NCBI GenBank assembly: GCA_902793245.1
Contig: CADBCX010000009.1
Span: 1 to 33,235, forward strand
Reading direction: 5' to 3'
Source of the DNA: an uncultured Eubacteriales bacterium
Lineage (GTDB): Bacteria > Bacillota > Clostridia > Christensenellales > Aristaeellaceae
DNA: 33,235 bases
Below the pieces are notes generated by a model. The model was not told the DNA's origin, did not search any database, and saw only the letters and a program-made list of their open reading frames with translations. This document shows positions 22,437-26,644 of the stretch, piece by piece (position 1 is the first letter of the stretch; each line of letters begins with the position of its first letter). The position numbers and the translations under genes were made by a program.

Positions 22437-22503
22437 CTGGGGTTTCACCCCAGGCCCCACCAGGGTACTCAGTACCCTGGTGGGGTGCGGGGCAACGCCC
22501 CGC
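22437..22503. repeat. Three consecutive perfect hairpins
   Basis: Hairpin 1 is CTGGGG/CCCCAG (22437-22442, 22448-22453). Hairpin 2 has a 14-bp perfect stem (22455-22468 with 22472-22485) and a three-base loop. Hairpin 3 is GCGGGGC/GCCCCGC (22487-22493, 22497-22503). No U run follows. This looks like a dispersed intergenic repeat of the GC-rich genome; 22393-22583 contains nothing else that I can identify. Confidence 0.8.
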
Positions 22504-22583
22504 CGTTCTCCTTCTTTTTACCCTTCGCAACATAGCTGTTATCAATATAATACTGTATCACGCGGTTTTTGACAATATTTTTC

Positions 22584-22637: not shown

Positions 22638-23039
22638 ATGATCACAACGAAAGGCCGTTACGCGCTTCGGGTCATGATTGATCTGGCCGAAAACGATCAG
22701 GGAAGCTACATCCCCTTAAAGGATATTTCCGCCCGCCAGGAGATATCGAAAAAGTATCTGGAAATCATCATGAAGGATATGGTAGCAGGCGGCCTTGTGG
22801 AGGGCGCCAGCGGGAAAGGCGGAGGATACAGGCTGTGCCGCAGGCCGGAAGAGTACGCGGTCGGCGAAATTCTGGAATGCATGGAGGGCACGCTTTCCCC
22901 CGTCGCGTGCCTGGCGGACAAGGAAAACCGCTGTCCCAGGAAAAGCATTTGCCAGACCCTGCCGCTTTGGACCGAGTATTACGACATGGCGCGCCGCTTC
23001 TTTTACGGCAAAAAACTCAGCGACCTGATTCAATCGTAA
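22638..23039 (+). CDS. Rrf2-family regulator with IscR-like cysteine cluster
   Basis: A 133-residue winged-helix regulator (MITTKGRYALRVMIDLAEND; ISKKYLEIIMKDMVAGGLVE; GKGGGYRL). Three cysteines lie in CLADKENRCPRKSIC, spaced C-x7-C-x5-C, close to the C-x5-C-x5-C that binds a [2Fe-2S] cluster in IscR. It is therefore likely to sense Fe-S, oxygen or nitric oxide rather than act like CymR. No iscS or iscU genes are nearby; the next gene is the TIR protein, which has its own promoter 25 bases after this stop. The start is fixed by AAAGGAGG. Confidence 0.88.
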   Translation: MITTKGRYALRVMIDLAENDQGSYIPLKDISARQEISKKYLEIIMKDMVAGGLVEGASGKGGGYRLCRRPEEYAVGEILECMEGTLSPVACLADKENRCPRKSICQTLPLWTEYYDMARRFFYGKKLSDLIQS

Positions 23040-23063: not shown

Positions 23064-23092
23064 TTGCGAAGCTGCGGGGTCTGTGGTATCAT
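23064..23092 (+). promoter_or_regulatory. Promoter for the TIR-domain gene
   Basis: TTGCGA (23064-23069) and TATCAT (23087-23092) are 17 bases apart, giving an untranslated leader of about 135 bases. The leader contains small inverted repeats such as ACGGC/GCCGT and TTCGCC/GGCGAA. The start codon at 23237 has GGAGGA six bases upstream. Confidence 0.5.
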
Positions 23093-23236
23093 GTAAACAA
23101 TCCGGGCGACGGCCGAGGGGAAGCCGTTCCGGGAAAAAGCAGCATAAAATCCATGCGGCAGAGCGTTTCAGGACGGCTTTCGCCAGGGCGAAACGCGCTC
23201 CGCGCAGCAGATCATTTACATTCGGGAGGAATACGT

Positions 23237-26200
23237 ATGGAGCCACAATACCAGTATGATGCTTTTATTTCATACCGGCATTTGGAGCCGGATCAGACGG
23301 CGGCGATCAAATTGCAGACGATGCTGGAAAGCTATCGTCCGCCCAAAGGCGTGGCGGCGGGAAAACGCATCCGCCGCATATTCCGGGATTCCTCCGAATT
23401 GCCGACCCAGGGGGCGCTGGACGATGCGCTGACCAAAGCGCTGTCTTCCTCCAGATACCTGATTCTGGTGCTTTCCGAAGCGACCAAGGAATCAAAATGG
23501 TGCATGGCGGAGGTTGACTTTTTCATCAAGCTGCACGGCGGGAAAACCGACCGCATCCTGCCCGTCCTGGTGTCCGGCGAGCCTTCCGATATCCTCCCCG
23601 ACGTGCTGCGCTTTACCGAAACGCGGGAAACGCAGCCGGATGGGACGGAGAAAATCGTCAGAACGGAAAAAGAACCCATCTGCTCCGATTTCCGGGCCGC
23701 TACGCCCAAGGGCATGAACCAGCGGATGAAAACGGAATTTCTCCGCTTGGCCGCTCCGCTGCTGGGGTGCGGATTTGACGACCTGTACCAACGGCATAAA
23801 AAGCGGAAAAGGCGGCGCATCGCCATCATTACGGCCGCCGTGCTGGCTATCGTGCTGGGTTATGCGGGAATCCTTCTGCACAATTATCTCCAGATCCAGC
23901 AGAAAAACCGCGAACTGGCATCCGCCAACAAAACGCTGACGGAACAGAAAACAGAGCTGCAAATCAGGGAATCCGGGCTGTTGACCGCCCAGGCGCAGCT
24001 GCTCATGCAGGCGGATAACGATCTGGAGGCGCTCCGAACCGCCCTGGACGCGCTCCCCGATAACACGGAGAATGGGAACCGCCCGCTGTACAAGCCGGCG
24101 GAAAGCATTCTCTGGCAGATCATGAACAGGGACAGAAACAGATGGTGGCAGTATGACAGCCTCACCTTCAATGCCACGCTGACATCGGAAACAGGAATCT
24201 GGAGGTATTCCCTCTCCTCCGACGCGCGGGAATGCTATATCCTGGATATATATGGCACAGTGAGAAAATACCGCACCTTTTCCAACGCCCTGGAATGGGA
24301 AACGGATCTGCCGATGCAGGCGACTTCTGTCGACATGACGGCCTTTGAATTGCTGTTAAGCGAAAAGCACGGTTGCGTTTTTGTCAATACGGAAGCGAGG
24401 GGTAAAGACGGAAATATCTGCCAGGTCCTTTCCGCGCTTGACTGCGCCGACGGACACCTGCTGTGGCGCATGGACATTCAGGGCTCCTATAAAAAAATCA
24501 TGATGCTGTCTCCCGACGAAAACAGCCTGAGCTTTCTCAGCGTAGCAGATGGAAAATGCTATCTGTTTGATTTGAGAAACGGCGTATCAGACGATCTTCC
24601 TTATCAGGTCTGCGAGATTTCCAGCGGTAACAGCATTTCAGAATACGGTATCTGTTTTTCCCAGGACAGTACGGGAATCCTCGGCGGGGCGTTTTTATCG
24701 AAGGAAGACGGAAAAAAGCTCCGTCTGTTCATGATGGATCCGAACGACCCTGCCGAAAGCAAAATTCTTGATGTCGACGGTCCTGCCGCACGCATCATTT
24801 ACGCCGTCGATTTTTCCAAAGAAGCGAACCAGTTCTTCACAGTGACGGCAAACGAAACAGACAAACCGCACAATGCGGATATTTCCTGTTTTGATCTGCA
24901 AAGCGGTGCGCTGCTCTGGCAGGTTACAACGCCTGATGAAATGTTCAAATGGAGTACGGAATGCAGAACGCTGCCTGATCTGGCAAACGGCGTGTATTTG
25001 CTTTCCGTAGACAGACAGGTGTTCGCGTTTGATACCGCCTCGGGCTCCCTCATAGCCCAAACCCGGTTAGACAACGCCTCGGCCAGAACGATTGATTTAT
25101 ACAGCCCGGAAGACGGCATCTATTGCGGTGTTCTGAGCGATGGAGACTGCTGGGCGGGTTGGTTGGAATCAAAATATGGAGAAAAAAATCTTTTCACCTA
25201 TGATTATTCGCTGTGTTTTCCTGGCGCTGTGCTCAGATCATCGCCGCTTGATCTGCTCGAGCGGGCCGGAGGCATTCGGGACGCGCACTGGAACGAGGAT
25301 CATTCCTTCCCGGTTTTAGACATGGGAAGCGGTTTTTCAGCGTATACGATCGGGAGCCGCGACGTCCGCATCGAATGGCGGCTGGCGTTTGACCAGCTGT
25401 GGCGGCCGTATTTTACGCTCCCCATGAAGCATGGAGAATACATTATCCCGATGATGGACGAGCAATCGGCCCTTGTGCGGGATGGGAAAATCACGTTCGT
25501 GATAAAAAAAGAATACGATGAAGACGGTTTAGCCTTTCCCGATTTCCGCTTGGCAACGCTGGATCTGCAAACCTATGAATTGCGGGAAACCGCTTTCGAC
25601 CTGCCCATCGAGCTTTACCTGTGGGGAAAAAACGGATGCCAGTTTTTGCCTGTCCAGGATTCCGACGACGTCCTGATCGACCTGTATGGCGCTGCGATCA
25701 AGTATTTTGACGCTTCCCAGGGGAAGATGGAAACGCTTTACGCCTTCGGCGGCCAGGATGAAGCCGCCATCATGAAAAACGGCAAAAAAACCGCAAGCAT
25801 TCTCGCGGCGCTGCAAACCCGGGACGGGGCGGCGCTGGCTGCCGCCTGCGACGGCCAGGCGCTCCGCCTGTGGAGAAACGGAACAAGCGCCACGGAAATT
25901 CCTCTTCCCGAGAAAACGGTATGGCAGTACAGCGCGGAAGGTAATGCGAATCATCTGCAGCTCATCGGCTCGAACGGATATTTCCTGCTGGGTGATTTTG
26001 CTTCGCCCGACAGCCCGGCCCTGGCGCGGTTCATGGCGTGCGATACGTCCTCCGGCGTTTGGACCGCCGTTCAGGATGAGGCGCAGGGAGTCGCGGACAG
26101 GGATATCGCCATGGCGCACGCAGCTCCCCTGTTCGCAGTGGCCGATGCGGACAGGATGATCCGGATCTATGATATGAAGCAGGGCGTCTGCGTGCAGCGC

Positions 26201-26644
26201 ATCGCCATCCGGATGCCGGAAACCTCCATAAAAACGGTCGGCTTTTCCAGCGACGACCAATTTATGTTCTGCAGCATGGAGGGAAGGATCCGCATCTACG
26301 AAGTCGCGTCTGGAAAGCTCGTCTGGCAGAGCGAAGAATCCATCAATCAATTGCCGGTCAGCGTGACGGTGGATGCGGACACGCAGCAGATGTATATCTG
26401 TTCCGGCGACGAATACGACATTGGCAGCATCAATGTCATCGTGGATATGGTCACCTGGTCGCAGAAAGCCGTCATCCGGGACGTCCTGGCTTTCGTCCCC
26501 GAGCTTGGCCGCATGGTCATGTATGCCTCCGTTGATTGGGAGATGCAGGTGAGGCTGCTGCCGACGTCCCAGCAGATCATCGACATGGGGCATGAAGCGC
26601 TCCAATGGATTGAAGAGCACGGCGCCGCACCGCGGATCCCGTAA
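23237..26644 (+). CDS. TIR-domain transmembrane protein with C-terminal beta-propeller
   Basis: A 1135-residue protein in three parts. Residues 1-160 are a TIR domain: DAFISYRHLEPDQ, RDSSELP, and LSEATKESKWCMAEV, in which Glu92 of WCxxE is the glutamate used by NAD-cleaving TIR domains. A basic patch HKKRKRRR (187-194) precedes one membrane helix (about 195-215) and a short coiled coil (216-246). The positive-inside rule puts the TIR domain in the cytosol and the rest outside. Residues about 300-1130 are WD40/PQQ-like propeller repeats (MLSPDENSLSF, LFDLRNG, CFDLQSGALLW, IRIYDMKQGVCVQ, IRIYEVASGKLVW). An upstream extension of the frame to 22835 overlaps the Rrf2 gene. Signal, ligand and enzymatic activity are unknown. 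It converges on the GH30 gene. Confidence 0.85.
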   Translation: MEPQYQYDAFISYRHLEPDQTAAIKLQTMLESYRPPKGVAAGKRIRRIFRDSSELPTQGALDDALTKALSSSRYLILVLSEATKESKWCMAEVDFFIKLHGGKTDRILPVLVSGEPSDILPDVLRFTETRETQPDGTEKIVRTEKEPICSDFRAATPKGMNQRMKTEFLRLAAPLLGCGFDDLYQRHKKRKRRRIAIITAAVLAIVLGYAGILLHNYLQIQQKNRELASANKTLTEQKTELQIRESGLLTAQAQLLMQADNDLEALRTALDALPDNTENGNRPLYKPAESILWQIMNRDRNRWWQYDSLTFNATLTSETGIWRYSLSSDARECYILDIYGTVRKYRTFSNALEWETDLPMQATSVDMTAFELLLSEKHGCVFVNTEARGKDGNICQVLSALDCADGHLLWRMDIQGSYKKIMMLSPDENSLSFLSVADGKCYLFDLRNGVSDDLPYQVCEISSGNSISEYGICFSQDSTGILGGAFLSKEDGKKLRLFMMDPNDPAESKILDVDGPAARIIYAVDFSKEANQFFTVTANETDKPHNADISCFDLQSGALLWQVTTPDEMFKWSTECRTLPDLANGVYLLSVDRQVFAFDTASGSLIAQTRLDNASARTIDLYSPEDGIYCGVLSDGDCWAGWLESKYGEKNLFTYDYSLCFPGAVLRSSPLDLLERAGGIRDAHWNEDHSFPVLDMGSGFSAYTIGSRDVRIEWRLAFDQLWRPYFTLPMKHGEYIIPMMDEQSALVRDGKITFVIKKEYDEDGLAFPDFRLATLDLQTYELRETAFDLPIELYLWGKNGCQFLPVQDSDDVLIDLYGAAIKYFDASQGKMETLYAFGGQDEAAIMKNGKKTASILAALQTRDGAALAAACDGQALRLWRNGTSATEIPLPEKTVWQYSAEGNANHLQLIGSNGYFLLGDFASPDSPALARFMACDTSSGVWTAVQDEAQGVADRDIAMAHAAPLFAVADADRMIRIYDMKQGVCVQRIAIRMPETSIKTVGFSSDDQFMFCSMEGRIRIYEVASGKLVWQSEESINQLPVSVTVDADTQQMYICSGDEYDIGSINVIVDMVTWSQKAVIRDVLAFVPELGRMVMYASVDWEMQVRLLPTSQQIIDMGHEALQWIEEHGAAPRIP

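Follow-up and report, generated by a model that had tools for sequence, protein, structure and literature searches.

A predicted membrane TIR-propeller receptor of an uncultured Eubacteriales bacterium and the RyR-domain genes beside its relatives

The stretch of DNA analysed here (the window: all 33,235 nucleotides of contig CADBCX010000009.1, from an uncultured Eubacteriales bacterium) encodes at 23237-26644 a protein, P0001, that combines an N-terminal TIR domain, one hydrophobic segment and a C-terminal propeller region. What is new here is that genes for proteins with a ryanodine receptor (RyR) domain keep company with the genes of its membrane TIR relatives. In the reading that we prefer, at a probability of about 0.47, P0001 would be a membrane receptor through which an outside signal triggers cleavage of nicotinamide adenine dinucleotide (NAD+) by the TIR domain, giving an ADP-ribose-type messenger that RyR proteins would read in the relatives, whereas the window copy would act through a reader encoded in trans or through loss of NAD+.

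The open reading frame of P0001 is intact, starts with ATG, has 1,135 codons and was scored as coding by a codon-usage script. Its translation exceeded the Pfam cut-offs (bits/cut-off) for TIR_2 (41.9/28, residues 10-125), ThsB_TIR (26.7/21.2), TIR (22.3/21.3) and PQQ_2 (44.8/27.6), and in the AlphaFold2 model a TIR fold spans residues 1-176, one unbroken helix 180-258 and propellers rich in strands 308-1107. Coordinates and domain order were thus as given in the first-pass annotation, which had been made by a model from the letters of the window. The features of the gene are as follows.

23237..26644, + strand: TIR-helix-propeller protein P0001, 1,135 residues (translation, Pfam, structure models)
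23237..23764, + strand: TIR domain and C-terminal extension, residues 1-176
23510..23512, + strand: codon (GAG) for Glu92 of WCMAE, the catalytic-type TIR glutamate (conservation in family rows)
23792..23818, + strand: basic juxtamembrane patch RHKKRKRRR, residues 186-194 (sequence)
23819..23884, + strand: predicted transmembrane helix, residues 195-216 (hydropathy; within the continuous model helix 180-258)
23885..24124, + strand: predicted helical stalk and small helical region, residues 217-296 (AlphaFold2 model)
24158..25387, + strand: predicted first beta-propeller, residues 308-717 (AlphaFold2 strands)
25394..26557, + strand: predicted second beta-propeller, residues about 720-1107 (AlphaFold2 strands; WD40/PQQ-type Pfam matches at 930-1088)

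As a fold search with the full model left the TIR region uncovered, residues 1-225 were modelled alone. The resulting model (predicted local distance difference test score, pLDDT, 94) had TIR structures as its best matches; among its matches were the TIR domains of SPARTA, SARM1, AbTir and RUN1 and likewise those of MyD88, MAL and Toll-like receptors. The modelled fold and a Pfam score above the curated cut-off place P0001 in the TIR domain superfamily, and the comparison with NAD-cleaving TIRs proposed in the first-pass annotation found SARM1, SPARTA and AbTir among the matches. The same annotation had singled out the glutamate of WCxxE and had made its own reading depend on a TIR fold and on conservation of Glu92 in close homologues; both were found, the fold in the model. 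Glu92 is invariant in the rows of alignment A7 (52/52), which comprises the window and the 51 rows that remain of 79 usable loci when redundancy is cut at 75%. For a wider count, a protein search that scored 7,987 candidates supplied the best 120 of 259 significant proteins (P0001 included), and 10 more from fetched loci brought the set to 130. The glutamate is kept in 129/130 of these rows (117 WCxxE, 9 WVxxE and 3 YCxxE), the sole exception being a TIR-like protein of genome G044, and by the family hidden Markov model (HMM) it lines up with SxWCxxE in the plant TIRs flax L7 and Roq1. P0001 therefore carries the sequence mark of NAD-cleaving TIR enzymes and may itself cleave NAD+. The MyD88, MAL and Toll-like receptor matches would also suit a TIR domain without enzymatic function, which only oligomerises and recruits partners as in MyD88/TLR signalling, the glutamate being structural. 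We consider such a scaffold very improbable, as the glutamate is retained in both sets while V can take the place of Cys in WCxxE, and the partners described below carry a nucleotide-binding domain type.

Regarding the membrane segment, the 19-residue hydropathy window at residue 195 of P0001 has a Kyte-Doolittle mean of 2.55, and no other window reaches 1.6. A hydrophobic segment was detected in 117/120 of the listed relatives (P0041, P0084 and P0117 were under the threshold). Lysine and arginine residues were more numerous before the helix than after it in 127/127 rows scored, 3/130 being below the hydropathy threshold. This asymmetry favours a predicted N-in/C-out orientation, and with one helix and a positive-inside signature P0001 is of the single-pass N-in/C-out membrane receptor type, as far as topology can be predicted. 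The first-pass annotation had drawn on the basic patch ahead of the helix in the same way, and the outside position of the propellers is likewise a prediction.

The helix could instead be a mere anchor, or not be inserted at all, in which case the propellers would sense inside the cell, in the manner of STAND-WD40 proteins. Cysteine makes up 1.96% of the C-terminal region of P0001, compared to pooled values of 1.05% for 33 exported and 1.73% for 150 cytosolic proteins of the same genome (signal peptides were called by a simple hydropathy rule), which leans mildly against export. According to one study, obligate anaerobes tend to keep cysteines out of exported proteins (PMC12453122); cysteine is not strictly excluded from those of the window's genome. 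Many cytosolic WD40 proteins also appeared among the fold matches, and the first propeller, which matched both cytosolic WD40 proteins and exported ones (BamB, YxaL), resembles the former at least as well as BamB, a mixture compatible with either location. An inside-facing propeller is nevertheless quite unlikely in our view, given the lysine and arginine asymmetry in every row scored, the presence of only one helix and a family mean cysteine content that is 1.24% for the C-terminal region and 1.95% for the TIR part (119/120 proteins), a difference that parallels that between exported and cytosolic proteins. PQQ/WD40-type Pfam matches fell on both halves of the C-terminal region. The extracellular propeller of the first-pass annotation was thus right as to the modelled fold but not as to number, since two propellers, not one, were predicted. 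A cytosolic propeller was the third outcome that, by the first-pass annotation, would refute its reading; the lysine and arginine counts speak against it and the cysteine content of P0001 mildly for it.

P0001 is a member of a large family, found mostly in Clostridia, whose conserved TIR-helix module is joined to C-terminal regions that change fast or are unrelated. The C-terminal regions of the 130 proteins formed 12 BLAST groups (E<1e-10, coverage >25%) with 68, 37, 9, 3, 3, 2, 2, 2, 1, 1, 1 and 1 members, and identity between P0001 and its full-length relatives P0002-P0005 was 54-55% in the TIR-helix part and 25-27% in the C-terminal region, a contrast suggestive of sensor-like evolution. 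When the C-terminal region of P0001 was used alone as a query, only P0001 itself was returned among 7,993 scored candidates, but this search requires shared 5-residue words, so that its result is no evidence of isolation. On genome contigs, a single protein as query found no relative and an alignment of 22 members succeeded. Seven of the 28 other genomes of the window's genus (7/28) had a match, that of G027 covering the propeller region only, on a short contig. In a set of 80 loci (the best 80 of 574 relatives, with 916 predicted genes from approximate gene calls), the relatives are by title mostly Clostridia, many of gut or rumen; Heliobacterium mobile and a Solobacterium are exceptions. As to domain variation, four of the 120 listed relatives (P0031, P0041, P0048 and P0090) have a precomputed Pfam entry PF17820, which we take to be a PDZ-type domain. 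Tandem TIR pairs, with a protein of 281-307 residues beside one of 686-687, were seen in three genomes (L035 7999-10979, L215 4055-6954 and L216 2440-5342), and the small TIR of the L035 pair is without the catalytic-type motif.

RyR genes in the 80 loci were called with an HMM of our own (E<1e-3), built from 21 RyR stretches, because PF02026 alone misses several of the partners; a profile comparison used for the same reason (A8 against A6) gave 94.5% probability (E 8e-8). A RyR gene was found in 26/80 loci, in 23/80 at no more than two genes from the TIR gene. Counted as gene slots, RyR genes filled 27/287 within two genes of the TIR gene versus 4/549 further off. When the contigs that gave HMM seeds (L110, L140 and L148) were removed, the values were 24/277 versus 4/534 (p 1.5e-8), and when a single locus per 70%-identity TIR cluster was also taken, 11/143 versus 4/288 (p 0.0014). 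The dereplicated count is the fair one, because 14/23 loci came from one TIR cluster of 20, mostly Ruminococcus. Among the 26 loci besides the window that had a TIR gene by HMM in two other sets, 11/26 had a RyR gene within two genes (L026, L028, L032, L035, L090-L092, L096, L098, L106 and L108); their RyR genes were mostly HMM seeds, those of L032 and L092 excepted. Five relatives have a C-terminal region that matches that of P0001 (E<1e-10; L110, L118, L140, L148 and L149), and in 3/5 a RyR gene is no more than two genes away, L110 and L140 being seed contigs; L148 (same contig as G008:C20) carries a small RyR gene about 13 kb further on.

The RyR partners were of several kinds: small RyR proteins of ~85-110 residues (PF02026 1.8e-25, L114); proteins in which three or four predicted helices precede a RyR domain at the C-terminus (PF02026 1.4e-4, L113) and which from a glycine-rich motif are presumably TrkA-like; and K+ channels that combine a TVGYGD filter with a RyR domain (L035: Ion_trans_2 1.1e-13, RyR 4e-6). 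In six genomes a compact cluster encodes a TVGYGD-type K+ channel-RyR protein, a TrkA-like RyR protein and a membrane TIR protein of 465-478 residues. Its genes are co-directional, with overlaps of a few bases or nearly contiguous, apart from one called gap of ~140 bp in L203.

L201, 2872-7699: K+ channel-RyR/TrkA-RyR/TIR cluster
L202, 2642-7468: cluster of the same composition
L203, 2701-7521: cluster of the same composition
L204, 4609-9387: cluster of the same composition
L205, 906-5641: cluster of the same composition
L106, 6844-11667: cluster of the same composition

Full-length matches to the TrkA-RyR type (E<1e-100) were found in 13/150 genomes of the bacterial family, 12/13 being no more than two genes away from a TIR gene. 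The model had drawn on six of these 13; of the 7 others, 6 adjoin a TIR gene and the exception is on a 5.6-kb contig. Ten genomes had only weaker TrkA-RyR matches, and those inspected were mixed, with TIR adjoining RyR in L098 and L194 but not in L197, L200, L209 and L210. Across 248 genomes of the order (G000, G001 and G044 contributed to a model), RyR-type matches occurred in 22, membrane TIR matches in 15 and both in 8 (Fisher p 4.5e-6, uncorrected for kinship). Besides G078, whose TIR match is weak (2.1e-4), four new genomes of the order, from two other families, have TIR and RyR genes side by side (L211-L214); nine other TIR stretches of this set had no RyR gene. A count of 53/150 genomes with matches was not used, as many of the matches were propeller-only.

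A 2026 preprint (PMC13232231) describes a phage RyR-domain protein, RyDEP, that cleaves the cyclic ADP-ribose (cADPR) isomers 2'/3'cADPR, contacts its ligand through H75, W78, H100 and D117 and has homologs of which 6/8 tested bind 2'/3'cADPR. In 11 small RyR rows (10 distinct) from near TIR genes or from the same genomes, HxxW and a later DR are invariant and, judging by spacing, are the apparent counterparts of H75, W78 and D117, while the equivalent of H100 is not invariant. RyDEP shares the RyR domain PF02026 with the partners of the family TIR genes, but it is described there as a phage anti-defence protein, whereas the RyR domains found here are bacterial, several of them on channels, and lie beside TIR genes.

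A second frequent neighbour is a DHH-type gene, recognised by its start motif and encoding ~510 residues, which lies within two genes of the TIR gene in 27/80 loci (DHH 3.7e-14, L120); BLAST adds two truncated copies (L137 and L180). It is mostly just upstream of the TIR gene, overlapping it or within 50 bp, and sometimes downstream or divergent.

L120, 7445-8986: DHH-family gene
L128, 3817-5370: DHH-family gene
25 further loci of L110-L189: DHH-family genes

DHH and RyR genes never occurred together within two genes of the TIR gene in any of the 80 loci, and clade structure contributes to this exclusion. Our guess is that the DHH protein may degrade the messenger or a derivative of it. In L120 and ten other loci of L110-L189, the gene directly 3' of the TIR gene is, we assume, glutaminyl-tRNA-synthetase-like, and its recurrence in 11 loci suggests a stable chromosomal site and not a mobile defence island. 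In L096 (5953-12188), the membrane TIR gene adjoins genes for a protein with weak YspA-type SLOG and DUF4231 matches and for a protein of 678 residues with a RyR-like C-terminus. Burroughs and colleagues reportedly described, in 2015, nucleotide-centred systems with TIR, SLOG and RyR.

Several results, together with the cysteine content of P0001 and the affinities of its first propeller, weigh against the reading of a receptor coupled to RyR. The window gene has neither a RyR nor a DHH neighbour, and in 57/80 loci there is no RyR gene within two genes of the TIR gene. For the partners of L026 and L090, PF02026 gave no match at E values up to 0.01. Of the order genomes with a TrkA-RyR-type match, 14/22 yielded no match to a membrane TIR at E 1e-10, and among ten stretches around PF02026 matches a family TIR gene was present in L194 and L195 only, the other 8 being without one; RyR genes thus live apart from family TIR genes too. 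In the window's genome, the RyR HMM was run on 22 stretches (20, plus the window and the C72 locus) with 289 genes and detected no RyR gene. This genome is 84% complete, and the one TrkA-RyR gene found in it is on contig C42 (L108 2815-7429, G000:C42), where a TIR protein of 777 residues with one hydrophobic segment is encoded beside a TrkA-RyR-type protein of 749. A second full family member is on C72, and two more TIR_2 genes are on C42 and C5. The C42 TIR gene, like those of 23 of the 80 relatives, has a RyR gene no more than two genes away, and the window gene does not. The first-pass annotation's description of a gene that stands alone was accurate for the window copy but not for much of the family, many members being beside RyR-domain or DHH-domain genes.

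Since the window copy has no adjacent reader, either the C42 protein, the single candidate found, would read its messenger or the loss of NAD+ would be the output. Taken further, the same receptor layout could serve solely to destroy NAD+, the triggered TIR depleting it in an abortive, SARM1-like manner with neither messenger nor partner. Such a role would fit the lone window copy, the SARM1 and SPARTA TIRs among the fold matches, and the 30/80 loci that by motif count have neither RyR nor DHH within two genes (28 after the two truncated DHH genes are added). However, the strong RyR association elsewhere in the family points to messenger use, and we hold NAD+ destruction as the only function to be unlikely.

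When P0001 is compared to known systems, it shares with the Toll-like receptors of animals a single-pass membrane protein, a cytosolic TIR and an outside sensor, all as predicted, and differs in that the TIR is N-terminal, propellers replace leucine-rich repeats and the catalytic-type glutamate is intact. The first-pass annotation had proposed just this reversed order, which the N-terminal TIR, the single helix and the strong positive-inside signal also predict. P0001 was not classed as a strict Toll-like receptor, which has a leucine-rich-repeat ectodomain, a transmembrane helix and a C-terminal TIR. Its likeness to the Thoeris ThsB TIR consists of the conserved Glu, the score above the cut-off for PF08937 and, in its relatives, the neighbouring domain type that binds cADPR isomers; unlike ThsB, P0001 would be a membrane receptor with a 900-residue sensor, and its PADLOC ThsB match is 13.9 bits (E 0.0081). 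A strict Thoeris assignment was rejected because of this weak match and because no ThsA-type gene was present among five window neighbours scanned. The best PADLOC match was PDC-S66, a candidate phage-defence family (24.2 bits, E 4.8e-6), and it covers only the TIR part, residues 5-110, of P0001, the model being 282 positions long. The TIR NADases SARM1, AbTir and SPARTA are regulated by ARM, coiled-coil or Argonaute partners, whereas P0001 has a predicted membrane-spanning sensor. Between its TIR and its propellers, no NTPase was found among the 25 Pfam families listed, the segment being a helix in the model, so that P0001 was not assigned to the STAND/NLR proteins with TIR and WD40, in which an NTPase lies between effector and propeller. 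To our knowledge, the known bacterial TIR defence proteins sense phage inside the cell.

In passages of four papers, TIRs are combined with STAND, vWA, TPR or membrane helices, and the layout of P0001 does not appear (PMC8195603, PMC7159879, PMC7075850, PMC13142454). Neither a membrane TIR-propeller receptor nor a TIR-RyR channel operon was found described in the portions covered of the open-access literature (PMC subset), in line with the first-pass statement that no studied system has such a design.

Around the gene itself, the following features were recorded.

22638..23039, + strand: Rrf2-family regulator, upstream neighbour of the P0001 gene (PF02082 2.8e-31; TIGR00738)
23064..23092, + strand: promoter-like site TTGCGA-17-TATCAT, with TG ahead of the second hexamer (consensus scan)
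23224..23229, + strand: GGGAGG, a ribosome-binding-type sequence 7 nt 5' of the P0001 ATG (sequence reading)

The promoter-like site agrees with the promoter of its own that the first-pass annotation had given to the gene; sites of this type numbered 5 in the 901 bp scanned, versus 0.8 expected. The adjacent gene was likewise found to encode an Rrf2-family regulator. The five neighbours scanned encode Rrf2, HTH, beta-lactamase-fold, GH30 and DUF2130 proteins. When the Rrf2 and GH30 proteins were compared with the neighbour genes of the 80 loci and of 30 further loci, there was no BLAST match (E<=1e-3), and a link of the P0001 gene with either neighbour was rejected on this ground. A G+C-rich hairpin (10 pairs, loop 8) at 22478-22505 lies 5' of the Rrf2 gene, in a region that by eye is rich in inverted repeats.

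In the receptor reading, then, the propellers would respond to something on the outer side of the cytoplasmic membrane, this response would cluster the inner TIR domains, and the clustered TIRs would cleave NAD+ to an ADP-ribose-type messenger. In the relatives, the next-door RyR proteins, whether small, TrkA-like in the membrane or K+ channels, would read the messenger, and the reading would change ion flux or halt growth. More tentatively, and in our estimate possible though on the doubtful side, the family could be a Clostridia counterpart of the animal cADPR-ryanodine receptor axis, in which TIR receptors that face outward produce an ADP-ribose messenger inside the cell, RyR-domain K+ channels are opened by it and the outer propellers are swapped or evolve fast, like immune sensors, with the window gene as a solo receptor. 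A membrane receptor of this layout would let bacteria act on a surface signal, as Toll-like receptors do. The recurrent pairing of TIR with RyR, some partners being channels, makes it directly testable whether ADP-ribose signals produced by TIR domains are linked to ion flux. It is also relevant to a long-standing question, whether cADPR acts on ryanodine receptors by way of the RyR domain.

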